From Telopea speciosissima (taxonomy: Eukaryota > Streptophyta > Magnoliopsida > Proteales > Proteaceae), in the NCBI RefSeq assembly GCF_018873765.1, contig NC_057919.1:64288984-64352983 (forward strand): a DNA stretch of 64,000 nucleotides, in the 5' to 3' direction. Made by a program: the position numbers and the translations under genes. Below, one piece after another: positions 9,158-56,714 of the stretch. How positions within the stretch are numbered: the stretch's first letter is position 1; each line of letters begins with the position of its first letter. Below the pieces are notes generated by a model. That model worked only from the letters and a program-made list of their open reading frames with translations, had not been told where the DNA came from and ran no database searches.

Positions 9158-9247
9158 CTACAATGTGGGTTTTGAAGTAAGTGTAATTGAGACAAGGAGA
9201 GAGGTAAGAGAGTTAAGAGAGTTAGAGAGTTAGAGAGTGATCAAAAA

Positions 9248-12200
9248 ATGAAGGAAACAGTAGCAATAGTAGTAGGAGCTGGGCCTGCTGGTATATCAAC
9301 TTCTGCTTGTTTAAACCTCCAATCAATCCCTCACATTCTTCTTGAAAGAGAAGATTGTTATTGTCCCATATGGAAGAAGAAAGCTTATGATCGTCTCCAT
9401 CTTCACTTACCAAAGCAATATTGTGAGCTCCCTCACATGTCTTTCCCTGAATCTTACCCAAAATTTGTACCTAGAAAGCAATTTGTCCAATACTTGGATG
9501 AATATGTGAGTAACTTTAAGGTGAATCCGGCATGTAATCGAATCATCGAGTTGGCGACATACGATGAAGTTGAGAAGAAATGGTGTGTCAAGGTTAGGCA
9601 CACCAAAACTGATGAGATAGAGGATTTTAGAGCTAAATTTCTTATAGTGGCTACTGGCGAAAACAGCGAACCGTTCATTCCGGAGATGAAAGGCCTTGAG
9701 AGCTTCAAAGGGGAGATTTTGCATTCTACTCAATATAAATCTGGGAGTAAGTATAACAACAAGAATGTTTTGGTTGTTGGATGTGGTGACTCTGGGATGG
9801 AAATTGCTTGTGATCTAGCAAACTTTGGTGCCAAGACTTCTGTCGTCATTCGTAGTCCGGTAAGACAATTTATGGCTGTGTTTGGTGTGTATTTTTAGAA
9901 TAGATTTTAGATCTAGAACGCATTTTGAAACTTTACTCTTCTCTATTTTCTCACTTTAGAATACGTTCTACACCTAGAATATATTCCGTGAATGCATACC
10001 AAATCCATCCTTGGACTCTCAAGATGAGAGAGTTCCCAAACTTACTCACCATTAGGCATACTTGATTATACTTGGCTGTGAGTTCTTATGAAAAGGACCT
10101 TACACCCATCTCATAATTAATCAAAAGGAAAAATATTGTCACAATGTCACTCTGCAGAGTTATGGGTATGCACTTTATCATTCCACCTGTGGACCCCACA
10201 CACTATCTTCTTATAAATACACCTTCACTATTAAATTAATGATTAGGTTTTCCATCCCCTTTTGGTCGGAAACTACACTCTGGCACCGTAACAAACTCTC
10301 TACCTGAAATAAAAGTCGCCTCCTGACAAAAGCACATGCTAGGGGGATTTTCGTAGTCATGGTTTGGGTAGGAATCGATGGAATCAGTCAATTCGAATCA
10401 GAATCGACTAACCTTGGTTTCGATTATGTTTCATTTTTTAACCCCTCTTTTGACGTGGCAATGGATGCACTTGGCTCTCTATATATATTTTTCTTTTTAA
10501 TTCTTCTATTTTAAAAAAAAAAATCAATTAAACTTGCTTCTTAATTTTTATTGTAACAATTGCAAATCTTTTGAATAAAAAAAACTTTAATAAATTATAA
10601 GGGAGAAAGTTCTCTCTCTCCTCTCCATATGAAAAGATACCTCTAATTCTCTTGTTTTTAGGATGAGAGAGATAGACACATGGGAGTGATGACGTAGGCC
10701 ACACTCCAAAACTACTTCCCAAATCATAAATATGTGAAAATCTTTATTATATTTTGGGAAAAAGAATTATGTTCGGGAGTGTGGCCTACGCCAGCACTAC
10801 CATGAGTCTATCTTTCTCCTCCCTATATGAAAAGGCAGTTCTGCCCCCTTGTTTCAAGGAGGAGAGAGATAGACACATCGGAGTACTGGCGTAGGCCACA
10901 CGAATTTTTATCCTCTGTTGTTCCGCTTGTTTGCTGCTCGAACAGCACAGTGTTGTCCCCTTACATAGGGTGTGAAATGACGACTTAACCTCCCTCGGCC
11001 AATGTGTTCAGGCAAGGAGGTTAAGTCGTCATTTCACCCCTATGTGAGGGGACAATAGGTGTTGTTTGGGCAACGAACAGCAGAGGATAACGATCCAGGC
11101 CACACTCCTTGATAGAAAACTGCTTCCTTTATGTTTTTTATTCTATTTTCTAGGGTTTTGGGCATTTCAGCTGTAAAAGAGGGTTAATTAAAGACTGACT
11201 GGTTTTGCTTTTCTTGATTCGGATTCGGATTTGGATTAAATCCGGGTGGTGCAGCTTCACGTTCTGACCCGATGGATGGTACAATTCACGTTGTTTCTGT
11301 GGAAGTATCTTCCCCTTCACTGGGTGGATTCATTGATCGTCGTGCTCAGCATGTTGTGGTTCGGTGATATGAGCAAGTACGGCATAACAAGGCCCAATGA
11401 AGGTCCTTACTATATGAAGGACAAATATGGAAAGTACCCAAACATCGATGCTGGTGCCATTAAGAAGATTAAGGCTGGCGAGATTCAGGTACACTTCTAC
11501 CCAGCTTATCCTTATACCGATTTCCAAACAGTATTGATTCAAAAGAAATTGGCCAATTCAAAACCAAGATTTATTCAATCTTTGATGGACCAGGTTTTAC
11601 CAGGTATAACTAGCATCAATGGTGACGAGGTGTCCTTCACAAATGGAAAGTCTTATCATTTTGATGTGATTCTGTTTGCCACTGGCTTTCGTAGAACAAC
11701 TAAGAAGTGGCTCAAGGTAACAATTCCGTATCCATATCATTCCCTAATTCACTTAATAAACCGGCCCGATTACGGTTTGGTGTTCTTCCAACCCAATTGG
11801 TCAAACCAAACCTGACCTTTGTATATGAGCCAAGAACATATCAATTAGTTCAACTCAGGCCAGGCTAGGTTGGGCCATTGATGAGTTTTGAATGAAGCTG
11901 AGCCTGATCCTCGAATTAATATAGCTCAGATTTGAAATGGACCGTCCGAGTTGAACCATTGTATGGGCATAGGTCTATATGGTTTTATGCAAAAGCATTC
12001 AATATTGAGGATATTAATTCAATTAGTAAACTTTTTTTTTTTTTTGCACTATCCTATTCAAGGGCCCATAGGCCAACTACAAGCTAACGGGAAGGCTAAG
12101 ACAAGCCCACAATCTACAACTAGGGGGGAGGGGGGAGGGGGGAGGGGTAGGAAGGTGCCTTTTTTTTTGGCACAATATGCAGTCCAGGAGAATCGATCCC

Positions 12201-20814: not shown

Positions 20815-21272
20815 TTGTGGAATAATAATTTAGTCTTGGCTACCATGCATATTGTGGAATAATATAACATTTTTCTTAAACATAGATATGCTCAAACTTC
20901 AAATCCTTAATATAACAAACCAGTACTGAAGAATTGTAAATTTCAATACTGAAAAGTTTTACAAACTCGATCATCAACTACACACATTTTATACATTCTG
21001 ACTTCTCAAACATATTTTCCCTATATATGAGTTATTCTTCTACTAAAAGCACGCCCAATACATTAAAATACGTACCCAACGCTTATAGTTTCTTCTAGTG
21101 TGACCTTTGGTGTCAATTCAAGGAACAGAGGAAGTTCCCCACTAAAGCATATATAGTGATTGGGACACTAGCTAGAAAAACAATTGGTAAGGAGGCCCAG
21201 AGACGAACATCGTAGCGAAATAAAGTCAGGGCAGCTTCAACAAAGGCATCCGTGGTAGTTTCGTCAAGAAAG
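20815..21272 (-). pseudogene. Truncated paralogous 3' end of an ankyrin/PGG gene
   Basis: This block aligns along its length with the 3' end and 3' flank of the gene at 25847-26491 (for example 'gaacagaggaagttcc' followed by 'catatatagtgattgg' and 'caattggtaaggag' in both, in the same order and orientation). It stops in the middle of the PGG-domain exon, where Copia gag sequence starts at about 21273. It is a broken tandem paralogue. The reading frame is not maintained. Confidence 0.7.
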
Positions 21273-22130
21273 CCACATCTGATGATACCACCGCCTCTAA
21301 CTCCTCTGTAGCTAAGCTCTTTTCCTCTCTACCCTCTACCCATCATTATGTCTCCCTGAAGCTCACACCCAGTAACTATCTCTCCTGGCGCAAGCAAATC
21401 GTTGCTTTTCTCAAAGGGCAACGTCTCTTCTCATATGTTGATGGCTCTAAGCCGCGCCCCCCTTCTGGTGATGCCGCGGATGATTGGCAGCAACAAGATG
21501 CCGCCATCACCAGCATGCTTCTCGCTTCTCTTTCAGAAGAGGTCTACTCACCTGTTCTAGGCAAAGATTTCAGTCATGAAACTTGGACCATGCTTCAGGA
21601 AACTTATGGTTCTACATCATCAACCAGGCTAATGAACTTGAGTATGTCACTCCAAAATCTCAAGCAAAAGCCTGATGAACCCATCTATGCCTACTTTCAA
21701 CGTGCAAAGGTTATTGCTGATGAGTTCGCTGCCATCGGTAATCCACTCAAACCGGTTGATTTTAATACGTATGTCCTTGTACTCCAACCTGATTTGCAAT
21801 GCATCATCCCCTCCATCCTCACTCGTATGGAGCCACCCACATATTCTGAATTGAGTGGTTTACTACTCAGCAATGAGAGCATTATAACATTTCAGAAATT
21901 GCAGATTGCCAAATGCGCCACTCCATCACTTGCGCCTCCTTCGACAAACATTGTTCAAAGGTCTCCTTCATCTGATAATGGTTCCTCCCCTGGATGAGGT
22001 TCTGGACATGGGGGTCGGGGTGGTCGCTTTGGTCATGGTTGTGGTGGTCGCTTTGCTCCCCAAGGTGGTCATTTCTTCTGCATTATCTGTAGTCGAATGA
22101 ATCATGCAGCCCCGTAATGATATTACAAAA
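21273..22130 (+). pseudogene. Copia-type gag fragment
   Basis: An open frame from about 21275 to 21997 encodes a UBN2-type Copia gag: LTPSNYLSWRKQI near the start, then TWTMLQETYGS, a SLQNLKQKPDEPIYAYFQ block and LVLQPDLQCIIPSILTR. After a stop at 21995-21997 the same frame continues with a glycine-arginine run and the start of a zinc knuckle (CIIC, then an H) before homology ends. No LTR, protease or RT is adjacent. It directly abuts the broken PGG paralogue, so its 5' end was lost. Confidence 0.75.
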
Positions 22131-25846: not shown

Positions 25847-26619
25847 CTACATGTTCATGCTTATAGTTTTCTTTCTAATGACCTTTGACTTGGGTAAACT
25901 ATTTGTGGAATGTGTCAATTCAATGAACAGAGGAAGTTCCATAAAAGCATATATAGTGATTGGAACAGTAGCTAGAAGAACAATTGGTAAGGAGACCCCT
26001 AGACGAACATTGTGGTGAAATAAAACCAGAGTGGCTTCAACAAAGGCAGTCATCATCCCCATTATAGAAACGAAAAGGAAAAAAAGCCCCATCATCAGCA
26101 TACGTGGCAATTTCTTTAAGAAAGCTTCTTCTGCATGACTTGTAGTAATAATGGCCAGAAACATCAGCATCGAAGCTACGGAAGTGGTAAGTCCCAATAT
26201 ATCTGTGATAACAAATATTATAGAATATTTGTCATGTTTGTAATTGAGTTTGTTTGTACCACTCTTTACAGAACCTGAAATACTAAAGGCATCTGATACA
26301 CTAAACACTGCTTGAAACATGATTGTGGAGATAAGGGTTGCGACGACCATGCACTGTTGTGCTGTTTCCTTCATCCACTTTGCACCTTCATCTACTAGCT
26401 CTTTGTGCTCCAATGTGAATAACTTTCTAGATGTCAGACCATCTTTGTTTTTGAAATTTTTGAAGCCTGGTGGCATAATGCTTTCCACTTCCTGCAGTGA
26501 TGAAAGAAATTTAGTGAAAGCAAATTGCATACACACATATGAATCACCAGAGTTGTCAATTGTATTGCCTTGATGACATGCATAAAATCTTGGTGGGCAA
26601 TCTTACCAAGTTAGTGAAA

Positions 26620-28915
26620 AAGAAGTATGCAATCTTACCAATTGAATCTACAATGGATTTCCCTTAAAATTTTTCTTAATCTACCTCCACTCTGCCTCTA
26701 GGTTCCCAATCCTCCAGTTGTTAGGCCAACATTTAAACATTATCCCTCCCCATAGACGAGAAGAGAATAGACATCGGAAGAATAAGTGTTGTATATCCTC
26801 GACTTCATTCCAACAAAGACAAGAAGAAGTTGGAGAGGGAACTTGACTCCTTTGAAGGAAGTCCTGAGTTGGGAGAGTTTTTGTAAACACTCTCCATATA
26901 ATAAAACTGTGCTTCGGGATGTGATTCTTTAACCACATGAAACCATGGAACCATATCCACTTAGGTTGTTACTAGATTCCAAGTTGAGTTCGAGGAAAAA
27001 CTCTCAGAGTGCGAAGCATTCGATACAACCAGATCCTGAGAACCTCTACGCCGCCTACTAATCCCCTCACATGCTAAACGTGCCTCAAGCATACTAGGAG
27101 CAAAGCTAGACCCAACCAAGGTTCCATCATCCATCAATGAGAATGGAAGATATCTTGGCAAGTTTATCAGTCCTAGAAAGATAACAAATTGAAAAGAACC
27201 CCCAGGGAGTGCTAGTTGTCCAACCAAAGAAGGGTGGAAGAGCTATTATCCAATCTGGATTTAATAATCAGAGCAACCAAAATGTCTATATTTTAGTATC
27301 TTCCGCTAGGACCAAGATGCATCCAGTGGGCAGGATATTTTCCAAATGGAATCCTCCTTAAGGTATCTAGAATATATCCAATAAACCCACAGACTCTTAC
27401 TCTTGGAGACCAAGTTCCAAATGAGTTTCACAATCCCTGCGATATTCACGTCTTTGATTCTTAACCCAAGATCGCCCTCTCATTTTGGAAGACACATTGT
27501 TGCCCAACTAATGGTTTGAAGGAATTTTTTATTATCAATGTCTTTCCACAAAAAGGCGCTCATTATAGATTCCACTCTCTGGATGATGGATTGCGGTAAC
27601 CCAAAAATACTAGTCCAATATAAATAGGTTCTCTGCAAGACTGTCTTGATCACCACTAATCTACCTACATAAGAAAGGAATTTAGCTTTCTGAAGATAAA
27701 GCTTTTACCTTAGATTATCGAGAATAGGCATATAGTGGTGGGCAGTGAGTCTAGCCATAATGAGAAGAAGATCAAGATATTTAACTGGGAATGAACCCTC
27801 AAAGAATCCTAAAATAGCCCTAAGATTTACTTTTGCCTCCTCTGATACCCAGTGGAGAACAAAAGGGATTTCCATTTGTTCACAATCGAACCAAATATAG
27901 ATGCAAAGGAGGAAAGAAGATCAACAGTAGACGATATTGAACAAACAGTTGCGTTGATGAAAATCATAAGATCACCAGTGAAAGGAAGATGGGACAATTG
28001 AAGAACTTTGCACTTAGGAAACAAATGAATCTTTTCCCACTTAGAGTTGAGCCATCCTAGAGAAAGTTTCAATAACCAGCATCAATGCTAAAGCAAAAAG
28101 AGGACATCCTTGCCTAATCCCAACCCTATTTCTGAAGAATCTTGCAAGGCTGCCATTAACCAAGATAGATAAATGGGCAGAGGACATACAATGGAACACA
28201 CAACCTATGAAGGTCAATGGGAATCTCATCTGAATCATCACTTCCTTGAGGAATTCCCGACACACTAAATTATAAGCTTTATGGATATCTACTTTCCATA
28301 TTATTGTAGGGGAGTGAACTGACCTATCGACACCTCTAACAAGCTCAGAACAAATGAGGACATTGTCAGATATACTTTTGCCACTTATGAAAGCAAATTG
28401 GTTTACGGTTACTAGGTCATCTACAACCCTCCTCAAACGGAATGCCAAGATCTTGACAATGAATTTGTAGAGGGTATTACATAGCATAATAGGGTGAAAA
28501 TCTGCAACCGAGAAAGCACCCTCCACATAAGGGATTAAGGAAATGAATGAATGATTGGTAAGATGAAATTGAAGGGGTTCCAAAAAGAAACTCCACACTA
28601 TGAGCACAAGATTCTCCTTAACTATATCCTAGACATACAAAAAGAAATCTAAACTAAACCCATCCAGACCAGGGGATTTATTCTTTTTGATGGACTTAAC
28701 TGTTGCCAAAATCTCCTCTTTCGAAGGTATTGACTGGATTTTAGCAATTTGATCCTCCGATAAGAATTTGTTGAGAAGCCCATCGGGAATATACTCTCTA
28801 ACCGGAATGTACGGAGGGCTGAATATATCTTTGAACGAGTTTATCACTTCTTTCTTAATTTGGAATAAGGTGTTGCTTCCCCGACACTCTTGTTTCGCGG
28901 GGAGGCTCATGTTTG
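26620..28915 (-). mobile_element. 5'-truncated LINE in an intron of the ankyrin gene
   Basis: Minus-strand frames give a reverse transcriptase: KKNKSPGLDGFSLDFF (about 28640-28690), LVTVNQFAFISGKSISDNVL, VDIHKAYN and IRQGCPLFALAL, within 28041-28607. A zf-RVT region (KHSFIIWRVFTKTLPTQDFL, CLCWNEVEDIQHLFFRC) follows at 26681-26938. The expected active-site FADD box lies in the degraded stretch between. Stops and frame changes are frequent. No endonuclease, so it is 5'-truncated. Confidence 0.75.
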
Positions 28916-43543: not shown

Positions 43544-44257
43544 TGTTGCGTGTGAAAACCTCCGGTACTTGGTTCGCCCGTGGATGAACCTGCAAAAACC
43601 AAGCAATGAGCGCAAGAGGGCCGGTGTGGCTCCGGCCTAGGACTCTCCGATGCTCAAGTCAGGTCTTCAACGCGACAGCGTAACTGTGTAGTAAAAAAGC
43701 CAGCTGAGGAATAGTGCTCCATACCTGGGTATTTATAGAGTAAGGAGGAGATGAGACGGTTGGAAGAGTCCTAGTATGGTAGGAGTCCTTCTTTCGGAAG
43801 GTTCTCTCGCGTGGAGCGGAGTGGAGAGTTATTTTCGGGGTCGGACTCTTATTAAGGTAAGAGTCCATGTAGAGTGTGATTTCGTGTTGCGCTGGGATCG
43901 TGGCTCGGTCCTTATCCCACGATTCTCGGGATGTGCTGACGTGGCCTGGAGATCCCCGGTGGGGTGCTATGAGAGCCTCAATGGAGGAGGGCTCGGCCTA
44001 CGAGGTCGGCCCGTGGGGTCGGTAATGGAGGTCGGCCCGGGAGGAGGTCTCGGCCGCGAGTTCGGCTAGGAGTTTATGGCTGACCCGTATAATCTCGGCC
44101 TCAGCCACCAGCCAGCTCGCCCAAACCAGGCTTTGTCAGGTGACTTATCGGAGATGGGGTCGGCCCAATTTCCTGCTCGGCCCAACTCGGTTCTCGGACT
44201 GAAGTCGGGTCGGCCACGTGGCAGCCTCTGATAGGTGGGGTGTTTTATGCCTCATCA
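43544..44257 (-). repeat. 3' LTR of the Tat-lineage element
   Basis: 714 bp. On the minus strand a TATA-like ctctataaat lies at 43731-43740. The adjacent internal purine tract (gagtggggggcctg, 44258-44271 on the minus strand) is the polypurine tract. It retains a 21-bp segment near 44098 that the other LTR lacks. Confidence 0.9.
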
Positions 44258-44513
44258 CAGGCCCCCCCACTCATCAGGTGTCGGCTCGGCGTTGATGAGT
44301 GAAGTTTCCTGGGCATTTGTCTGGAAGATTCTTGCGGTTGGGCCGAGATTATTTATTGCTGCGGATTTGACGTTGCACGATCTGACGGTTGGGTGTCCGT
44401 GCCACGTCAGCAGAGTCATTATGGCGGGCTCGGGAATTCGAAACGTCCTTTGATCTGGGCCGTTGGATCATGCTGAGCTCTGGTCGGCCGTTGGATCAGT
44501 AAAACCCAAGGAT

Positions 44514-44520
44514 TATAAAT
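44514..44520 (+). promoter_or_regulatory. TATA box of the antisense gene
   Basis: The tataaat in gattataaataggcgactc lies outside the LTR, 257 bp inside the element, on the strand opposite to gag-pol. About 200 bp downstream is the first ATG (44715) of the PF04195-like frame. Spacing and context look like a normal plant core promoter. Confidence 0.6.
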
Positions 44521-44714
44521 AGGCGACTCCTAACTATTCATTCTTCACTGCTCTAAGTTATTGACTTCTCGGCAAGTTTGGAACCGTCAACTCGGTAGAT
44601 CTCGTCGTTTGCTTGCTCGTGATCGACTCGGCCGAAGCTTCGTTCGTGATCGACTCGGCCATCGTTTCGTTCCCGCTCAGCTCTTCTTCAACCAGTAAGT
44701 CTTCTCCGCCCAGT

Positions 44715-46990
44715 ATGTCAGTTGGTAGTAGTCCTATGGGCGAACTGCTCGCCAGGGCGGCAGAGGGCGCTAGTCCGAGCCGAGAACTCCCCATTCGCTC
44801 TCCCACCATAGACCTGTTGGGCTCGACCTCAGACGAGCCCGATGTAGTGGAGCTTCGTCAGGCCGAGGTGGCCGAGCCCCCGTTACCCATGGAGTTTGAC
44901 CACGCGGCCCAATCCACAGCCGCAGACCGGGCCGAGAACTCCGGGTCATCCTCATCCGATGAGGAATCAAGTGAGGGAGATTCGTCCGAGATGGGGGTTG
45001 GCTCGGTAAGCTCGTCTACCGATGCCCCTGAGCCCGAGGAAGGCAGTGTCGGCACTGATCCGAGCACGATCACGGAGGCCGACCTCGACTATCTGAGGAC
45101 GACCTACGCCATCCCCGAGGACATTCAGCTCCGAGTTCCTAATCCCGGGGAGATGGCCTGCTTCATCAGGCCCGGCGAGGTGGCTCTGTACGAGACGCCC
45201 TTCAAGTATGCGTTTTGGCTCCCCGTTCTCAGCCTGGTGGACCAGATCTTGGACCACTTCCACCTGTCTCCTGGTCAGCTGGTGCCGAACTCTTGGCTGG
45301 CCGTGTACGGCTTCTACGCCCTGTTCTGCGAGATGGGCCGAGGTGCGAGCGTGGCGCTTTTCTCTCGGCTCTTCTTCCTGAAGAAGTCTCCCGAGAAGGG
45401 GTGGTATTACTTCTGCCGCCGATCAGGGAAGAGTGCGGCTCTAGGCGGTCACAAATTTCTGGTCGGCACGCCGACCTTCAACAAGTATTGGAAGCCCCGT
45501 TTTTTCTTTGCTTCCATTCCCAACAGCCCTCTCCGAACCGAGTGGAAGGAGATGAATCTGAACTATGTAAATAGAGTACTACCCCTGACCGAGAACGAGA
45601 TGACCTCGCTCGACCTGATTCCCCAGCGTCCGCCCTTCGATGTTCTCCAGCTTCAGGACGAGGGGTTTCTTTAGAGTTGGCATATGACCCCTGGTAGGAA
45701 TCCTTGCCGAGCTTATCTCAGTTGTCCGAGCCGACCCCTTTACTTTGTTTTCTTTTCCTTTTCTGACTTGTTTTTTATGTTTTCGGTTTCTCTTGCAGTG
45801 GTCGGCCACATTCCTCCAATGGACACAGCTCGGCTGAAGGCCGAGATTATCGCGAAAAGGAAGAAGAAGAATGCCGAGAAGAGACCCCGGGGCGAGTCCT
45901 CCAAGGCCTCCAAGGGCAAGGGGGTGATGCCTGGACCATCGGACTCGGTGGTAGGTCTGGAGGCCGAGAAGAACACGGGTCAAGCCGGGTCTCCGAGGAA
46001 GGGGAAAGGCCGAAAAGGCGAGAGGAGCCCGCCGAGAGACATCAAACGCCAAAAGCTCTCAGTAAACCTGACGAGTGGCGGCCTTCCGCCCGTGGCTTCT
46101 CCCACCAACATCTCCCGATACATCCTGGGGAGGGCTTCGGCCAACAACGTCCCTGTGAGGCCTACCTGGTGCCTCTTCCCTGGGGACTCGGCCTTGACGT
46201 CGGCCGCTCACGCCAAGGAAAGGCTGGATGCAGGTCGGCTCCCAGCCGACAAGGAGAAGCTCGAGGCGCTGTCCGACCCTGAGCTCCTCTCCACCCTATT
46301 TCAAGACTTCAATATGGTAAGTTTCCTTGTCAGCTCTTGCATATGATCTGATGTGTGCAGTTTATCCTGATTTTTTGTTCTCATGCTTTTTTGTAGGGGT
46401 TCGCCAAAGCATGGAGACCATGCTCCGCTTGAGCTCCGACCGAGAACTATTCCTTGGACGTCCAGTGCAAGAAGGCTTATAGGACGCCCAGGATGCCGTT
46501 CGAGGCGTCGGAGACCCAAGAGAAGCTCACCGCGCCGAGGCCGAAGTGGAGAGCTCTCAGGCCGAGGTGGTCGGCAGAGAGAGAAGGTCCGGCTCTGCAG
46601 CTCGGCTCGGCCGAGGTGAAGGAGAAGGCCAAGGAAGATCTGGCCACGGCTCGGAGCGCGGCGATCGCGACTATCTCCAATCGGAGGAGTACGCCGATAT
46701 CTCGCCATGAGATCGGGAAGCCTCCCTTCGCCGAAGGTTTTGAAAGCGAGCCGAGTGAGCTTTTGGCCGAGATCAAGGCGCAGACTCGAACTCAATCTCT
46801 CCCGCTTTGACGATGATGCAACTACTTTTGCGGGGAGATAGGAGATGAGGAGGGAGCCGAGGTCACCCAAGCTCAGCCCCTTGAGGCACTGCTCCGGCCG
46901 ACGTCTTCCCTCTGGGAGCTGTCCCCCAAGACCCTACTGCCGAGCCCAATACCGTGGACGCCTCCGAGGGTGCCTCCAAGTCCCACGCTG
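44715..46990 (+). CDS. Antisense PF04195-like protein gene inside the Gypsy element
   Basis: Proteins with the 'putative gypsy type transposon' domain (PF04195) accompany plant Tat elements; their function is unknown. Exon 1 from the ATG at 44715 has an acidic serine-rich N-terminus. A domain of about 150 residues follows (RPGEVALYETPFKYAFWLP, MGRGASVALFSRLFFLKKSP and GWYYFCRRSGKSA). A TAG at 45672-45674 ends the frame, but the same frame continues to a donor at 45693/45694. A phase-1 acceptor (ttgcag, 45798) opens a basic exon 2 (45799-46316), which ends in phase 0 at a gtaagt donor. A T-rich acceptor follows at 46395. Exon 3 (46396 to about 46990) is Ala/Glu-rich, coiled-coil-like, and frame-broken. 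It is GC-rich like the rest of the element. Whether the TAG is a lesion or the true end is uncertain. The strong frame match across the intron favours a lesion. Confidence 0.55.
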
Positions 46991-47087
46991 AGGAGGCAGA
47001 GATGTAAATTTTTTTTTTTTTTTTTTGGTGTGTGTGTGGGGCCGAGCTGCCCCTTTTGTAACCGTGCCGATCAGTCGGCTTACAATG

Positions 47088-47093
47088 AATAAA
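47088..47093 (+). terminator. Polyadenylation signal of the antisense gene
   Basis: AATAAA in tacaatgaataaaacaactt, about 100 bp past the end of the last antisense exon and before the tandem array. With the TATA box at 44514 it would define a transcript unit of about 2.5 kb wholly inside the element. Confidence 0.45.
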
Positions 47094-47474
47094 ACAACTT
47101 ATTTTTGTCAGAATTCGTCTAAGTATTTGAACTCGGCGCCCTCAGCATTCTTTTCCTTGCGTATTCTGTTTTGTTTGTGGCCAAGCTGCCGAGTCGTTTC
47201 ACTAACCGAGCTTAGGAACTCGTCTCTTTTTTATCCATGCCCAACGTTGTAGGCGGTTTCGGCCATGCACGCCCGAGGTCAATGCGATCTTCGCTTTGGT
47301 TGGTTAATTCGCCTTTCCCTTCAGTCCGATTGGAGAGGCTATCATATAAGCGGACGCGTGGCCGAATATCCTTCTTGGCCGAGCCTAATGCCTTAGCGTG
47401 GTTTTGTACTTCGTTAGGCTTGGCCAAATAGGGATGTCGGCCCTTGAGAGGTCGGCCATGTCTATGTGGGACAG

Positions 47475-48170
47475 GTCTTACGACTGGTTGCCGACCTATG
47501 AGGGTCGGTTTTGATGTCGGCCTGGTCTATGAGGACCGGTCTTATGACTTGGCTGCCGACCTATGAGGGTCGGTCTTTGATGTAGGCCTGGTCTATGAGG
47601 ACCGGTCTTATGACTTGGCTGCCGACCTATGAGGGTCGGTCTTTGATGTCGGCCTGGTCATGAGGACCGGTCTTATGACTTGGCTGCCGACCTATGAGGG
47701 TCGGTCTTTGATGTCGGCCTGGTCTATGAGGACCGGTCTTATGACTTGGCTGCCGACCTATGAGGATCGGTCTTTGATGTCGGCCTGGTCTATGAGGACC
47801 GGTCTTATGACTTCTGGCTGCCGACCTATGAGGGTCGGTCTTTGATGTCGGCCTGGTCATGAGGACCGGTCTTATGACTTGCGCCGACCTATGAGGGTCG
47901 GTCTTTGATGTCGGCCTGGTCTATGAGGACCGGTCTTATGACTTGCGGCCGACCTAGGTCGTTGATGTCGGCCTGGTCTATGAGGACCGTCTTATGGCTT
48001 GGTGCCGACCTATGAGGATCGGTCTTTGATGTCGGCCTGGTATGAGGACCGGTCTTATGACTTGGCTGCCGACCTATGAGGATCGGTCTTTGATGTCGGC
48101 CTGGTCTATGAGGACCGGTCTGCCGACTTATGAGGTCGGTCTTTGATGTCGGCCTGGTCTATGAGGACCG
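47475..48170 (+). repeat. Array of eleven 66-bp tandem repeats inside the element
   Basis: The consensus unit runs from gtcttatgacttggctgccg through acctatgagggtcggtcttt and gatgtcggcctggtctatga to ggaccg. Eleven units are present, with lengths from about 53 to 67 because of small deletions and insertions, and a twelfth starts at 48171. Each unit contains two short inverted motifs (ccgacctatgagggtcgg and a ggtc/gacc pair). It lies between integrase and the antisense gene, the hypervariable 3' region known in Tat/Ogre elements to generate satellite repeats. Confidence 0.95.
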
Positions 48171-48472
48171 GTCTTACGATTTCGACTTGGGAGCTTGCCA
48201 ATACGTTGAGTGTTGGAGAAAAGACTTTATTAAATCAAATGGAACAAACCGAATACAAGCATGCTCAATTATTGAAAAACTTTTTCAAATTTTCCGAGTT
48301 CAAGGTCTCGGTACTTCTTGCCCCGAGTCTGCAAGCGATATGTGCCAGGTCAATTTGCTTGGAGACTATATACGGCCTTCCCAATTTGGTGCTAATTTTC
48401 CTTGTTGCCTCGGCTGGGAGCTGAGTTTTCGAGAACAAGGTCCCTCGAAAATGCCGCTCTTTGACTCTTGAA

Positions 48473-51400
48473 TCATAGTAGCTTGCCGTCTTCGTTGGTA
48501 CGCGCTTTGAGTAGGGCATTTTCTCGGACTTCATCGAGGAAGTCCAGATTGGCTCTCAGCCCATCTTCATAGGTCTTCTCATCGAAGTTGAGCACTCGGT
48601 ATGATGAAGCCATAACTTCAACCGGTGCGAGGGCTTCGGTCCCATAAGCGAGGCGAAATGGACTCTCCCCGGTTGGAGTTCTTACAGTCGTCCGATATGC
48701 CCATAGGACACTTGGGAGTTCTTCCACCCATCTCCCCTTGGCCTCATCCAACCTCCTCTTAATGCCGACAAGTAATGTTCGGTTGGACACTTCTACTTGT
48801 CCATTTGCTTGTGGATGAGCTACCGAGATGGGTCGGAAGTCAATGTGAAAGTGCTCGCAGAATTCTCGGAAGGCCGGGTTGTTGAATTGCGCGCCATTAT
48901 CAGTGATGAGAACTTTCGGTAGCCCAAACCGGTAGATGACCTTATCTCGAAAAAATTTTTCCATGTTCTTCTCAGTGGTGGTGGCAAGGGGCTCGGCCTC
49001 GACCCACTTGGTGAAGTAATCGATCGCCACTACTACGTATTTTCTGTTTCCCGATGCCGGGGTGAAATCTCCGAGAATGTCCATTCCCCACATAGCGAAT
49101 GGGATTGGGCTCAGCATTGAGGTTAATTTTGTTGCTGGTCAGCTTGGGATTGGCGCGAACAGTTGGCACTTCTCACACGTCTTCACGTATTTCATGGCCT
49201 CTTCTTGCATTCTTGGCCAATAGAATCCTTGCCGAAGTATCTTGTATGCAAGAGCTCGACCGCCCATGTGACTCCCGCATATTCCCTCATGTACCTCGGC
49301 TAATGCATACTCGGCCCCCTTCGGTCCCAGACATCAGAGAAGAGGGACCGAGATTGCCCTTTTGTAGAGTACTCCGTCGATCATCGAGTACTTGGAAGAT
49401 CGGATCTTGACCTTCCTTGCTTCGTCTCGGTTCCCCGGGAGCAGGTCATTCTCCAAGTAGTTGACAATGGGGTCCAACCAGGTCGGCCCATCCTCTTCAA
49501 TGTGCTTTATGCTTTCTTCTTGTAAGGATGGCTTCTCCAATATTTCTATGTATACTGATCGGCTCAGATATTGGAGGTCAGCCTCGGCCAATCTCGATAA
49601 GGAGTCCGCCGCGGCATTCTCTTTTCTCGGTATTCGAGTCATCTCAAAGTGTTCGAGCTCGGAGATCAGATCTCGGGCTCGACCCAGGTATGCTATCATC
49701 CTTTCGTCTTTTGCCTCGTAGTGTCCGTTGACCTGGTTGACCACGAGTTGGGAGTCTCCTCGCACCTTCAATCGTTTTATGCCCATAGCTTTGCTGACTC
49801 GAAGTCCAGCTAGAAGGGCTTCATACTCAGCCTCGTTGTTTGAGGCGGGAAACTTGAACCTTAGGGCATATTGGACCAGAAAGCCTTCGGGGCTTACAAG
49901 TATTAGGCCGGCCCCGCTTCCTCCGGAATTACTTGAGCCGTCAACATTCATAGTCCAAATCGGGTCGGCCGTAGCCCCGACCTCCTCGACTGTCTTTTCT
50001 TCTCCAACCTCATGTTCGGGCCCCGTGCATTCGGCGATGAAGTCGGCCAGGGCTTGTCCTTTTATTGCCGTCCTCGGTCGATAGCTTATATCGTATTCAC
50101 TTAGCTCAACTGCCCAGGAAATCAGCCATCCCGAAACGTCGGGTTTGTGTAATATCTTTTTGAGTGGCTGGTCGGTCAGTACCACGATCGGATGAGCTTG
50201 GAAGTACGGCCTTAGTTTCCTTGCAGCCGTGATTAGAGCGAATGCTACTTTCTCGAACCCGGAGTACCTTGTCTCGGCATCAACAAGAACGTGGCTGATA
50301 TAGTATATCGGCCTTTGAGTTCGACTCTCTTCCCTGATCAACACCGCACTGACCGCTACGGGAGTGGCGGCTAAGTAGACTTGAAGCTCCTCTTTTGGTT
50401 CAGGTCGGCTGAGAAGAGGCGGGTTCTCCAAATATTTCTTCAGCTCTTCAAAAGCTTCTTGGCATTCGGATGACCAGATAAAATCTTTTGGGTTCCGGAT
50501 ATTCTTTAGGGCCTTAAAGAACGGTAGGCACTTGTCGCCCGATCTCGACATGAATCGCGCCAACGCCGCCACACGTCCGTTTAGCCTTTGTACTTCTCGG
50601 ATCGTCCTTGGGGGACTCATCTCTTGGATGGCTCTGATTTTTGCCGGATTGGCTTCGATGCCTCTGATAGAGACCATGAAGCCGAGGAACTTTCCTGAGG
50701 TTACGCCGAATGCACACTTGGCAGGATTCAACTTCATCTGGTTCTTCCTCAGTACGCCGAAGGCTTCTTCCAGGTCAGCCAAGTGGTGTTCGGCCTTCAA
50801 ACTTTGCACCAACATGTCGTCCACGTAGACTTCCATGTTCTTTCCGATCTGCTCGTGGAATATATAGTTCACGAGGCGCTGGTATGTCGGTCCGGCGTTC
50901 TTCAATCCGAACGGCATGACCTTGTAGCAGAAATTCTCTTGGTCAGTTCGGAAGGCCGTGTACGACTCGTCCTCCTCATGCATCATGATTTGGTTGTAGC
51001 CGGAGTACGCGTCCATGAAACTCAGCATCTCGTGACCTGCCGTGGCGTCGATCCGAGGTAGTGGGTACTCATCTTTTGGGCAGGCCTTGTTGAGGTCGGT
51101 GTAGTCGACACACATTCTCCACTTTCCGTTCGGTTTAGGGACCATGACGACATTAGCCAACCAGGTCAGAAATTTCTCTTCTCGGATGAATCCTGATCGG
51201 CGAAGCCTCTCCACCTCTTCTTTGATTGCAGTTTGTCGATCAAGTGCGTAGTTCCTTCTCTTCTGCCGGATTGGTTTTCGACCCGGATCCACATGGAGTC
51301 GGTGCTCAGCTATATGTCTGGGTATGCCCGACATGTCCGCGGCCGACCAGGCGAAGACATCGGTGTTCACTTTTAAGAAAACTCCGAGCCGCCTCCTTTG

Positions 51401-51949
51401 ATCTTCACTTAGTAGTGATCCGAGCTGGACCACCTTAGCTGGGTCATCTTCGCTGAGATGAAGTGGGGTCAGGTCTTCCACGGGTCGCCCTCTTCTCTCG
51501 ATAAGCTCATCCCGCTGATCTTCGGGGAGATGTTCGACGCACATGGCCATTCCTCGAACATTACCCTTGTTTTGCTTGACGAAAGTAGCGTAGCACTCTC
51601 GTGCCTTCTTTTGGTCGCCTCGGACCTCGCCGACACCGTTCTCGGTGGGGAACTTCATCTTCAAGTGAGTCGGGGAGATGATGGCTTGGAGGGCGGTCAA
51701 TGACGGACGGCCGAGTATGGCGTTGAAAGCCACTACCGACCGTACCACCATGAATTTGACTTGGATCGTCGCCTGGCATGGAGCTTGCCCAATTGTGACT
51801 AGTAGATCGATCGAGCCCTTGATGGTCGCGGCCGCTCCCGAGAACCCGTGAAGCGAGGTTCCTTCGGGCTTAAGCGCTTTGTCGTCGAAGCCAAATTGTC
51901 GGTACGCTTCCAGTGACATAAGGTCCACGGATGCGCCGGTATCGACCAA
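48473..51949 (-). pseudogene. Gypsy pol: protease, RT, two RNase H domains, integrase
   Basis: One reading frame runs from 51949 to 48473, broken by two TGA codons (49334-49336 and 49139-49141). In order: protease with DTGA (residues 3-6), reverse transcriptase with catalytic YVDD (50817-50828), a Gypsy RNase H (about 50460-50050), a second RNase H starting WTMNVDGSSNSGGSGAG (about 49960) with NNEAEYEALLAGLR, an integrase zinc-binding region between the two stops, and the integrase core with MDILGDF, ITDNGAQF and QANGQVEV. The second RNase H places it in the Tat lineage. No chromodomain is visible. Upstream, pol joins gag across a short stretch in another frame. Confidence 0.9.
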
Positions 51950-52000
51950 TACACGGTGTACGGTCTGCTTCGCAATTTCTACCGCACCACTAAAGCATCG

Positions 52001-54165
52001 TCATGAGGTAAACTTATACCTTCGAGGTCGGCTTCCGTGAAGGAGATCGTCACCGCCGGCTTGAGTTTCTTGGCGGGCATCTCGGCTACTCCGACGAGCG
52101 AGCGCTTGCCTTAGCCTTTCGAGTACTCTCTTGCCGGGCCCCGAGGATAGTGTATATGGGGGCTCCCTTGTCATTGCTCGGCCCGATCCGTCCTCCTTCT
52201 TCTCGGCTCGGACCTTGTCATCATCTCTTTCAACTCGCCTATTTTCGGCCCTAGGCTCGGCTCTTCTTTGATCTCGGTCATCAGGCCGCCGACCTCCACG
52301 ATCTTCTCGGCCTCCTTTGACATATCGCTTCAAGTGGCCCGCTTTTATCAGCTCTTCGATTTCTCTTTTCAGCTGATAACAATCTTCGGTGTCGTGACCG
52401 ATGTCCTTGTGGAATTGGCAATATTTGTTGGGATTCCGAGATGACCCCGCTTGCATCGGTCGGGGTCGGCGGATGTACCCCCCATCTTGTATTTGCATCA
52501 GGATCTCCTTGCGAGATGCATTCAATGGCGTGTAGTCGGGGCTCCGAGCTCGATCCGACCTGTCAGCTCGGCGATCCGTCCTTGGCCTTTTGTCTTCTCT
52601 TCGGTCGTCTGTTGTCGGCCTTTTCTTGTCGGTACGACCTTCGTTGCCCTTCCGGGCTTGGAGGACCTCGGCCATATTTGCGAACTCGTTGCACCTCTCA
52701 AAGAGCTCGGCCAGGTTTCTTGTCGACTTCCGGGCCAAGTCCTTGATAAGGTCCATGTCGGCCAATCCGTTGCTCATAGCCGTATGGGCCGTGGCCTCAT
52801 CCAAATCCTTGATATCTAAGGATTCCTTGTTGAAGCGGGAGACGAATGCTCGGATCGACTCGTCGGGCCTTTGTTTCACTCTGAGGAGGTTGACCGTGGT
52901 CTTCTTATGTTTCATACTACTCTGGAAGCGCGTGACAAAGGCTCGACAGAGTTGAGCGAAGCTTCTTATGGAATTCGGCGGCAACCAGGAAAACCATGAG
53001 GTCGCCGCGCCTTTGAGGGATGCAGGGAAGGCTCGGCAAGAAACGATCTCGGTTCCCCCGTACATGGTCATCATCGCATTAAAGTAGTTGATGTGATCTG
53101 TCGGGTCGGTCGTCCCGTCATACCGGTCGAACGGGGGAGGTTTGAAACCGTGTGGTAGCGGCGCGGTCATGATCTCGGGAGGATAAGGGTGACGCCCGAC
53201 CAAAGAGTAGGCGTCCGGGGTCGCCTGTTTCTTCAACCCCTCCACCTGCTCGGCCAAGTCTCGTAGCCGCTTCTCCAGCTCGGTTTCAGGTGCTCGGCCA
53301 ACCGGCTCCTCGGCCCGGGGCTGATAGGGTCGGTCATCCCGTTGTAGTCGGCCATTCTGGTCAGCTCGGTCCTCCCCACCCTCCCTTGTTCTTTTTTCTT
53401 CTTGGAAGTTGGACCCTCGGGGGCTCCCCTGTTGCTCTTCTCGGGGAGGTGAGCTCTGACCCCGGGGAGTATGACGCGATCCTTCTCCTTGTCTCGGCGC
53501 GCGCCTTTCAACCGGGTCTTTCTTTGTTCTCGGAATCTCCTCGGCGGTTCGTCCTCTCCGATCCGTCCAGAAAATACCGACCTCCTCGCTACCGAGCCGG
53601 TCGGTTCAATTTCCTGCCCTGTTCGCGGGCTTTGGCGATGTTCTTGTTCACCCCGCCGAGCGCCTCTACTGGGGCGCGGAGGTGGAGTCTTCTGACGAGA
53701 CGGGTGCGAGGACGCAGCCCGACTCGGCTCGGCCCTACGCCGGCTGCCATTTTGCTGTAGGTTTCTTTCAGCGTGAACCGGAGCTGGAGGGGGCGCGGCC
53801 AGCGGCTGGCCCATCAGCCCGCCTCGGGCCATTTGGTTCATGAAGGCGCGCAGCATCTCGTTGGTGTGGAGCATCTGCAGCTGCAAATCCATAACCTGTC
53901 GATTATTTGCCGGGGCTTCTGGGTCCAAACTCTCCGGCAAGGGTGGTGGTGCAGGTAGGACATTCCCGTCCAAACTTGGCTCGGCCTGTACCCGGCTAGC
54001 CGCGGCCGTGGTTAGTGCACCTCCCCCATTCCCGCTCTCTGGAGGGGGAATGGTGCCCGTGATGGGCTGCGCACCACCTGCCCTAGGGGGTCTTCTGTTT
54101 ATCCCCTGCCGAGAGGCTTCGGGGGGCGGTGATCGTCTCGTCGGCACAACGGGAAGTCGAGTCAT
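52001..54165 (-). pseudogene. Gypsy gag polyprotein, frame-shifted
   Basis: Two overlapping open frames, 54165-53233 and 53257-52001, together cover a gag of about 700 residues. The first is proline- and arginine-rich. The second holds the gag core (LPHGFKPPPFDRYDGTTDP, SFAQLCRAFVTRFQSSMKHK, RPDESIRAFVSRFNKESLDI) and a zinc knuckle of the CX3HX4HX5C type (CQFHKDIGHDTEDC). The switch between them falls near 53330. A further stretch before the stop at 52001 continues better in a neighbouring frame, returning to the pol frame near 51984. The first ATG lies about 95 bp inside the 5' LTR end. Confidence 0.85.
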
Positions 54166-54260
54166 GCTGCCCTGACCTCCTATGCACCATTATTATTGTT
54201 CTGGGAATTGGCAGAAACGACGATGCTTGCCGATGTCGTTCCCACAGACGACGCCAAATC
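54166..54260 (-). promoter_or_regulatory. Leader and primer-binding-site region of the Gypsy element
   Basis: Reading the minus strand from the 5' LTR end (acgcaaca) the next bases are gatttggcgtcgtctgtggg. The TTTGGCGTCGTCTG text resembles the TTTGGCGCCG-type primer sites of Tat and Athila elements. I do not assign the tRNA. Confidence 0.55.
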
Positions 54261-55009
54261 TGTTGCGTGTGAAAACCTCCGGTACTTGGTTCGCCCGTGG
54301 ATGAACCTGCAAAAACCAAGCAATGAGCGCAAGAGGGCCGGTGTGGCTCCGGCCTAGGACTCTCCGATGCTCAAGTCAGGTCTTCAACGAGACAGCGTAA
54401 CTGTGTAGTAAAAAAGCCAGCTGAGGAATAGTGCTCCATACCTGGGTATTTATAGAGTAAGGAGGAGATGAGACGGTTGGAAGAGTCCTAGTATGGTAGG
54501 AGTCCTTCTTTCAGAAGGTTCTCTCGCGTGGAGCGGAGTGGAGAGTTATTTTCGGGGTCGGACTCTTATTAAGGTAAGAGTCCATGTAGAGTGTGATTCC
54601 GTGTTGCGCTGGGATCGTGGCTCGGTTCTTATCCCACGATTCTCGGGATGTGCTGACGTGGCCTGGAGATCCCCGGTGGGGTGCTATGAGAGCCTCAATG
54701 GAGGAGGGCTCGGCCTACGAGGTCGGCCCGTGGGGTCGGCAATGGAGGTCGGCCTGGGAGGAGGGCTCGGCCTGCGAGGTCGGCCCGTGGGGTCGGCAAT
54801 GGAGGTCGGCCCGGGAGGAGGTCTCGGCCGCGAGTTTGGCTAGGAGTCTATGGCTGACCCGTATAATCTCGCCCAAACCAGGCTTTGTCAGGTGACTTAT
54901 CGGAGATGGGGTCGGCCCAATTTCCTGCTCGGCCCAACTCGGTTCTCAGACTGAAGTCGGGTCGGCCACGTGGCAGCCTCTGATAGGTGGGGTGTTTTAT
55001 GCCTCATCA
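54261..55009 (-). repeat. 5' LTR of the Tat-lineage element
   Basis: 749 bp. It differs from the other LTR by about eight point changes, an extra copy of a segment of about 54 bp (ggaggagggctcggcctgcg onward, near 54750-54803), and loss of a 21-bp segment near 54870. A minus-strand TATA motif (tataaat) lies at 54448-54454. Confidence 0.9.
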
Positions 55010-56714
55010 GGTGGGTCTCTCCATGAACCATCTTGGTATAATAGGGAAATTACTTTCTGTTATCTGACTCTACCTGTTGCTTGAGTTAGAGGAATACCAA
55101 TAGTTTCACTGAAAATAAAAGGGCCAAACCATGGATCTAACCAAAGGTAAGCATTGTTCCCGTTTCCTATCAAGAATTTGATGTGGTGAACAACTACCTC
55201 CCGGGTTTTTAATATGCCTAGCAGAGATGAAGAACAAGTATATGGAATCCGAATAGACCAAATAGCATCATGTTGAAAGTACCTTTGATATAACCAATCC
55301 ACCCAAATGTTGCGCTTGTTTGAGCAAATATACCAGAATTGCTTCATTAAACCAGCAATATTCCATTCATGGATACGTCTCAACCCAAGGCCTCCCTCAT
55401 TTTACGAAAGACAAACTATAGCCCATTTCACTTTGTGTTTCCCCTTGTCTGAACAACATTGCTAAAGAAATTTTGAAAATAGCCTTTCTATTGTTTTACA
55501 AACTGATTTTGGGAGAGAAATAACTCCAGCTCAAAAAATCACAACACCAGTCAAAACTGATTTTATCAAAAGAAGTCTACCAGCAAAAGATAAGGTGTGA
55601 TTCCTCCAAGAGTTTATTCTAGAGTGAACAGCATGGATGAGAGGCTCACAAAGTTGTTTAGACATAGAAGCTGATGTAAGAGGAATTCCCAAGTATCTAA
55701 TCGGCGGAAACTCAACACAAGATATGCCAAGAATATTAGATATATCGTTCTTGACCGGATCAGCCGAAACCAAGAAGAACGCTTGTGACTTAAGGTGATT
55801 CATGGAGAGCCCCGATAATGATTCAAAAGTGTCAAGACACCATTTGATAGAAGTGGTTGATTGAGTAGTAGCCTTAGAGAAAATAAAAATGTCGTCTGCA
55901 AAACAAATGTTAGTCATTAGCGAATTAGAGCAATTCTGATGAGGAGTTAGTCTGTTGACTTGGCCTTCAACATCCAATAAATCCGAAAGGAACTGCATAG
56001 TAATCATAAAAAGGTAAGGCGACATGGGGCATCCCTGTCTAAGGCATCGAGTACCTGCAATATAGCCAAATTGGACACCATTGATGATGAAAGAGAATCT
56101 AGTATTAGTAATGCCGGCAACCATCCAATTTATAACTTTTGCTGGGAAATGCATTTTGTTCAGAACTGAGAAGAGGAAACTCGATCCAACTGACTGTATC
56201 GTAAGCCTTTTGTATATCAATCTTGGCTGACCCCCTTTAAGGTTGTAATTGTGAACCAACTCTTGGCAAAGAAGAATATTCCAAGACTTTTAAAAAAATG
56301 TGCGTTAAATCCATCCGGCCCTGGAGCTTTGTCCCCCATCTGCACCAAACACCACATTTCTAATCTCAAAAGGAGTAATAGGAGGAATTAGAGATAGACC
56401 TTCTTTTTGGGTCAAAGCTCGGTGAATAGGGAGGTCGAAAGGAACACAAACATGTTGCCAAATAATAAACAATAGCTTCCTGTTCAATGGCTGTTTGTTG
56501 GGTCACCTGCTGCCTCTGAGAATTCAGAATGGAACTGATCCTGTTAGCACTCCTTCTAGCCTTAATACACCCATGGAAAAAACTGGAATTAGCATATCCA
56601 TATTGAAGCCACTTAATTCGGGGCTCATGGCGAAGCTCTTTCTCTTCTCTAGCACTCAACAACTGAACCTTCGCAGACAAATCCTTTTCTTGATGTTGCA
56701 AGGTAGGATCAAGG

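Follow-up and report, generated by a model that had tools for sequence, protein, structure and literature searches.

The family of Retand-type Gypsy retrotransposons described here very probably keeps a spliced, protein-coding antisense gene, a reading supported by purifying selection in the predicted reading frames and by the lack of a clear codon pattern in the predicted introns. The gene model lies on the plus strand, antisense to gag-pol, in the region that separates pol from the 3' LTR. This is a real conserved gene first noticed in a copy where it is dead, as the element in the window, by which the whole analysed stretch of 64,000 nt is meant, is a recent insertion with a broken antisense gene. 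A first-pass annotation of the window had proposed a spliced antisense gene with its own promoter inside the retrotransposon, a proposal that holds for the family and not for the copy in which it was made. That such elements carry an antisense accessory ORF is known, while its predicted three-exon structure under selection appears to be new. The parts of the element and of the gene model are, in window coordinates:

43544..44257, minus strand: left LTR, the element's 3' LTR (blastn and MAFFT against the right LTR)
44514..44521, plus strand: TATAAATA, presumed core promoter of the antisense gene, invariant in 40 aligned copies
44715..45693, plus strand: coding part of exon 1, with an acidic, Ser-rich N-terminus and a PF04195 domain at about 45195-45383 (Pfam, codon-position distances)
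45694..45798, plus strand: intron 1, phase 1, T-rich, borders kept in siblings
45799..46316, plus strand: exon 2, basic, with nuclear-localisation-like runs, open in 28 of 40 copies
46317..46396, plus strand: intron 2, phase 0, T-rich, GT and AG in 57 of 57 siblings
46397..47009, plus strand: exon 3, coiled-coil-like, about 208 codons where open in siblings, broken in the window copy
47088..47093, plus strand: AATAAA, presumed poly(A) signal, kept in most siblings
47451..48176, no strand assigned: 66-bp tandem array, 10.4 units, between the antisense gene and pol (repeat search)
48473..53605, minus strand: gag-pol, with gag, RT, RNase H, a second RNase H-like domain and integrase (Pfam matches, ORF borders)
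54261..55009, minus strand: right LTR, the element's 5' LTR (blastn and MAFFT; GGTGG on the outer sides)

The host element spans 11.5 kb on the minus strand (43544-55009), and a target duplication of 5 bp, GGTGG, flanks both outer LTR edges. The two LTRs (714 and 749 nt) show 8 mismatches in 692 aligned columns (blastn, MAFFT); the right LTR possesses one extra 57-nt tandem unit (54700-54829) relative to the left LTR, to which a stretch of 22 nt (44094-44115) is private. At a commonly used rate of 1.3e-8 per site and year, the age of the insertion is roughly 0.4-0.5 million years. Within gag-pol, a single ORF contains Pfam matches to RVT_1 (287-442), RT_RNaseH (535-636) and RVT_3 (685-804), followed by the integrase in the next ORF; the RVT_3 match presumably represents the extra RNase H-like domain. 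With RVT_3 identified in this way, the domain order agrees with the second RNase H-like domain between RNase H and integrase that Retand is described to share with Ogre (available text of PMC6317226). The PF04195 ORF is located antisense to RT between pol and the 3' LTR, and the region between these two, which includes the array of 10.4 units of 66 bp, measures about 4.2 kb (48473 to 44257), within the range of 2,933-6,566 bp given for Retand elements, about half of which have tandem arrays there (PMC11963269, as far as available). By these domains and this layout, and not by RT phylogeny, the element is assigned to the Retand lineage (Tat clade, Ty3/gypsy). In the window copy the integrase frame differs from the RT frame, the compared RT stretch is about 12 nt shorter than in 12 siblings, and one stop sets the gag and pol ORFs apart, which may be normal as many Retand clusters have two ORFs there.

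On the plus strand, TATAAATA at 44514 is the sole TATAAAWA from the LTR to the ATG and is located 256 nt past the LTR edge, confirming the TATA box outside the LTR noted on first reading; the whole window contains 13 TATAAAWA on this strand. The presumed 5' UTR holds a 27-nt unit repeated 2.1 times (44617-44672), and a 45-nt stretch at 44590-44634 belongs to the most variable parts of the antisense gene (0.143). The ORF that starts at 44715, initially called PF04195-like, indeed matches the PF04195 profile over its cut-off (E 7.1e-09, 36.2 versus 26.2 bits; Pfam). The predicted splice motifs were all located, with donors at 45694 and 46317 (gtaagt) and acceptors at 45798 and 46396, and AATAAA is present at 47088-47093. 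Scored with consensus weights, the two donors reach the 97.0 and 99.8 percentile of the 3201 GTs of the window, the intron 1 donor (97th percentile of all GTs) being only a fair consensus match, and the two acceptors reach the 95.4 and 97.9 percentile of the window's AGs by pyrimidine content. The T content amounts to 47% and 49% in the proposed introns versus 15-22% in the proposed exons. Codon usage trained on exon 1 predicts the expected frame of exon 2 (+56.6 versus -116.0 and -64.6), and codon usage trained on exon 2 likewise selects the predicted frame of exon 1.

In the window copy itself, the description of the gene as complete-looking had to be abandoned. An in-frame TAG at 45672-45674 truncates exon 1 at a distance of 19 nt (6 1/3 codons) from the exon end, and none of the three frames of exon 3 is intact, the stops numbering 3, 3 and 6, although phase 0 is still preferred by codon usage in 12 of 18 windows along this exon. 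The statement that the frame is kept exactly across 45694 and 45798 is thus correct with respect to the phase only, as the frame of exon 1 stops before the donor is reached. Similarly, the proposed third exon is open in 21 of 40 copies, but not in the one where it was proposed.

The same genome (823 Mb) was searched for sibling copies. From the nucleotide search, the best 40 of 850 candidates were scored, including the window itself, with which the other 39 were aligned; from a protein search, the best 125 of 3765 candidates were scored and gave 30 loci, to which six more distant copies were added, and of these 36, 18 were dropped as repeats (one being the window itself) and 18 kept as new copies, six of them 82-86% identical. 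The resulting 57 siblings (39 + 18) rank among the best-scoring copies and do not sample the family at random. Every sibling of the first set (39/39) has TATAAATA, the ATG and the full set of four splice dinucleotides. In the 18 further copies TATAAA is found in all, giving 57/57, while donor 1 is intact in 18, acceptor 1 in 16, donor 2 in 18 and acceptor 2 in 18; overall, donor 1, donor 2 and acceptor 2 are preserved in 57/57 siblings and acceptor 1, lost in two of the further copies, in 55/57. The sibling alignment proposed with the first-pass annotation therefore bears out the conservation of the intron borders and of the TATA box in 57 other copies. None of the 57 shares the TAG of the window copy, two of the 18 having small gaps at its site, so that exon 1 does not end at 45674 in any sibling, and the exon 2 frame is maintained, being open in 28 of the 40 copies with the window counted. 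AATAAA is retained in 32/39 and 10/18 siblings (42/57), two of the 18 ending before the site, and the 3' end that it defines is the softest part of the gene model.

Conservation of the gene in the family goes along with decay of single copies. Exon 1 is open up to the donor in 22/40 copies and exon 3 offers 200 or more open codons in phase 0 in 21/40, the window being counted in both cases and not open in exon 3, and all intactness tests are passed together by 8/40 (window counted). Most copies are decayed, each broken at different places. At the splice borders, none of the 8 columns varies among the 40 copies, while 41% of 395 noncoding columns are invariant; when four adjacent column pairs were drawn at random, 51 of 20000 resamplings gave four invariant pairs. 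The length of intron 1 is 105, 106, 107 or 110 nt in the 40 copies; among the further copies, the six divergent ones range from 101 to 105 nt and the remaining 12 from 103 to 111 nt, which follows no multiple-of-three rule.

These observations bear on the alternative that the region holds two or three separate unspliced antisense ORFs (PF04195, basic and coiled-coil), which we consider improbable. Such ORFs were reported one by one in a 2025 survey (PMC11963269, in the text available), and a retained intron 1 is free of an in-frame stop in 15/39 siblings. On the other hand, separate ORFs do not explain why the splice dinucleotides are invariant in 40 copies, why both introns are T-rich and the variation of intron 1 is flat over codon positions, or why a retained intron 2 carries an in-frame stop in 40/40 copies; moreover, the stop closing the window's exon 1 ORF is missing from 57/57 siblings.

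A spliced protein gene is supported by constraint at the level of codons. Pairs among the 40 copies differ on average, at codon positions 1/2/3, by 0.032/0.030/0.100 for exon 1 and by 0.035/0.030/0.135 for exon 2, the contrast persisting without CpG columns; for exon 3, the 21 open copies give 0.031/0.033/0.087. Noncoding parts differ by 0.128 (intron 1), 0.093 (intron 2) and 0.083 (5' UTR) in 40 copies; read through in the exon frame, intron 1 is flat (0.113/0.129/0.126), and the values of intron 2 are 0.084/0.066/0.101. Towards its end, exon 3 shows intron-like variation (0.129 and 0.161 over the last 90 nt, 46885-46974). The copies are related and their pairs are not independent, so that the contrast of frames versus introns versus UTR is the argument, and not a P value. 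The pattern extends to the six divergent copies, which, each compared with the window, differ by 0.091/0.058/0.220 in exon 1 and by 0.111/0.085/0.326 in exon 2, with the introns differing by about 0.25.

Ratios of nonsynonymous to synonymous change (dN/dS) point in the same direction, with 0.159 for exon 1, 0.192 for exon 2 and 0.231 for exon 3, each calculated for 20 copies (the first 20 of the 40; for exon 3, 20 of the 21 open copies). The controls yielded 1.3 for shifted exon 1 frames, and 0.68 for the 5' UTR and 0.51 for the introns, which, being below 1, indicate that part of the dN/dS deficit is a bias of the method. In the same 13 copies, RT shows 0.145, exon 1 0.195 and exon 2 0.234. 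Codon constraint close to that of RT argues that a protein, and not RNA alone, is in use. This weighs against a role mainly as antisense RNA, which would pair with the genomic transcript in its 3' part, feeding silencing or limiting reverse transcription, the protein being incidental. The geometry fits this proposal, and the idea has already been published for these elements (PMC7264820, accessible text), yet a pure RNA role predicts no preference for change at codon position 3, whereas the exons have a dN/dS of 0.16-0.23 and the introns differ in pattern; the double-stranded RNA trigger raised in the first-pass annotation is not required to account for the codon constraint. A role mainly as RNA is very unlikely; protein and antisense RNA roles may both be present together.

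More unlikely still, to the point of being hardly credible, is an origin by chance, through long shadow ORFs in a GC-rich region with coincidental TATA, GT-AG and AATAAA motifs. Single motifs are common, and minus-strand ORFs of up to 210 aa that overlap the region are within the range of shuffles (maximum 304 in 300 shuffles). The stop-to-stop run of the PF04195 ORF on the plus strand, however, extends over 369 codons and, when the region was shuffled by dinucleotides, was reached 1 time in 1000, and chance accounts neither for invariant splice and TATA columns nor for codon-level constraint in 40 copies. On shuffles, sibling conservation and codon constraint together, a chance ORF was rejected at the family level. 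The minus-strand ORFs at 46301-46933 (210 aa) and 45579-46058 (159 aa), which overlap the antisense exons and are devoid of Pfam matches, are likely shadows of the plus-strand frames.

The spliced antisense gene, with modal exon coding lengths of 979, 518 and 624 nt, would encode a product of approximately 707 aa (707 codons by arithmetic, not from a joined sequence) with an acidic N-terminus, the PF04195 domain, a basic middle part and a coiled-coil-like end. Of the first 100 residues that exon 2 encodes in the window copy, 24% are K or R, with localisation-like runs among them, and such basic runs occur in 31/31 stop-free exon 2 copies among the 40. The Pfam matches of exon 3 in three sibling copies are all sub-threshold, several of them to coiled-coil families, and its heptad periodicity in six copies was not beyond that of shuffles, 8-18 of 100 of which were as good. 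The coiled-coil label given to the third exon on first reading, based on composition and the sub-threshold matches, is thus fair but unproven. A structure predicted from a single sequence for a 201-residue PF04195 piece had a mean pLDDT of 42.6 and was discarded; a search of solved structures gave nothing usable (best E 0.54), and a pattern search of viral contigs gave 4 matches with no relative among them.

Genome-wide, PF04195 yielded 2440 first-look candidates, the best 150 of which, when scored, were all over the cut-off, and many of these 150 lay in open frames that share a length of 299 aa. Further PF04195 families probably exist in the same genome. Elsewhere in the window, a plus-strand ORF at 9191-9898 with matches to flavin monooxygenase/pyridine nucleotide oxidoreductase and a minus-strand ORF at 25847-26602 with a PGG domain match are probably host gene exons. 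Other retroelements have left remains at 21224-21997 (plus), 28041-28628 (minus) and 55531-56289 (minus), namely a gag of copia type and two fragments of reverse transcriptase, one of them about 0.5 kb past the right LTR.

From the anatomy and the conservation we infer the following course of expression. RNA polymerase II would start the antisense transcript at the internal TATA box (44514), and the pre-mRNA would shed its two introns and terminate near 47.1 kb, before the tandem array. The protein would probably act in the nucleus as a nucleic-acid-binding oligomer that aids or regulates replication of the element, and copies that remain intact would supply it in trans. A nuclear accessory protein seems the likeliest product by its likeness to gene23 of Grande and to the spliced antisense genes of deltaretroviruses. 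The element can keep the introns because they are antisense: the genomic RNA reads them as CT...AC, and they are still in place when it is reverse transcribed. For spliced retrocopies at junction 1, a 27-nt pattern found 0 genome sites at up to 3 mismatches, a positive control with the exon 1-intron 1 border pattern finding 157 (74 + 83), and a joined 120-nt probe gave half-matches only (80 matches; best 40 of 566 candidates). Absence of junction 1 retrocopies is neutral in this respect, as an antisense mRNA would be without the element's own replication signals.

Antisense ORFs have been known from Retand elements, as the first-pass annotation had stated, and those with PF04195 (TRP28, Transposase_28) occur in 97% of the surveyed clusters (Vicient, 2025; PMC11963269, text as available). 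The Retand ORFs of that survey share with the gene described here the position between pol and the 3' LTR, the antisense orientation, PF04195 and a tandem array in the region, and some clusters have separate antisense ORFs labelled Smc. While the survey, in its accessible part, lists single ORFs from ORF Finder, the ORFs are here read as parts of a single gene, joined across two conserved introns; the survey's main text contains 0 occurrences of 'intron'. A published intron structure for Retand antisense genes was not found in the texts, titles and abstract openings covered, and an earlier description is possible in the Grande paper of 2013 or in the survey of Ty3/gypsy extra ORFs. Plant LTR elements are generally intron-less, with Ogre and EVADE as named exceptions (2025 review, PMC12786077, available text).

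For Grande of maize, antisense transcription from an own promoter is reported, and promoter activity and nuclear location are reported for its gene23 (Gomez-Orte, 2013, as cited in the available text of PMC7264820), while the gene described here shows, in its sequence, a conserved TATA box and localisation-like basic runs. Retand ORF4 of Silene is, like the window gene, antisense with pfam04195, and is weakly expressed (Kejnovsky, 2006, via PMC7264820); that review, in its accessible text, makes no mention of an intron structure for ORF4 and calls for a search for antisense and spliced transcripts. HBZ and APH of HTLV-1 to -4, of which HBZ and APH-2 are nuclear, have in common with the gene proposed here that they are antisense spliced accessory genes of an LTR element, the splicing being predicted in the present case (PMC10186651, text available). 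HBZ starts inside the 3' LTR, unlike the window gene with its TATA box 256 nt outside the LTR, and no homology is claimed.

A wider proposition, which we put forward tentatively and at slightly less than an even chance, is that the Retand antisense ORFs listed singly (PF04195, coiled-coil 'Smc') may be exons of one ancient spliced gene for a TRP28-basic-coiled-coil nuclear protein, and that the antisense orientation may be a device that keeps constitutively spliced introns through replication cycles. If true, this would give plants, as far as the working principle goes, a counterpart to the spliced antisense genes that deltaretroviruses carry. For work on the function of the antisense PF04195 ORFs, the gene model names the junctions to seek in strand-specific RNA-seq and yields a predicted full-length protein instead of an ORF fragment. 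With the introns held in antisense, the model also shows a way in which an element that replicates through RNA may retain introns.
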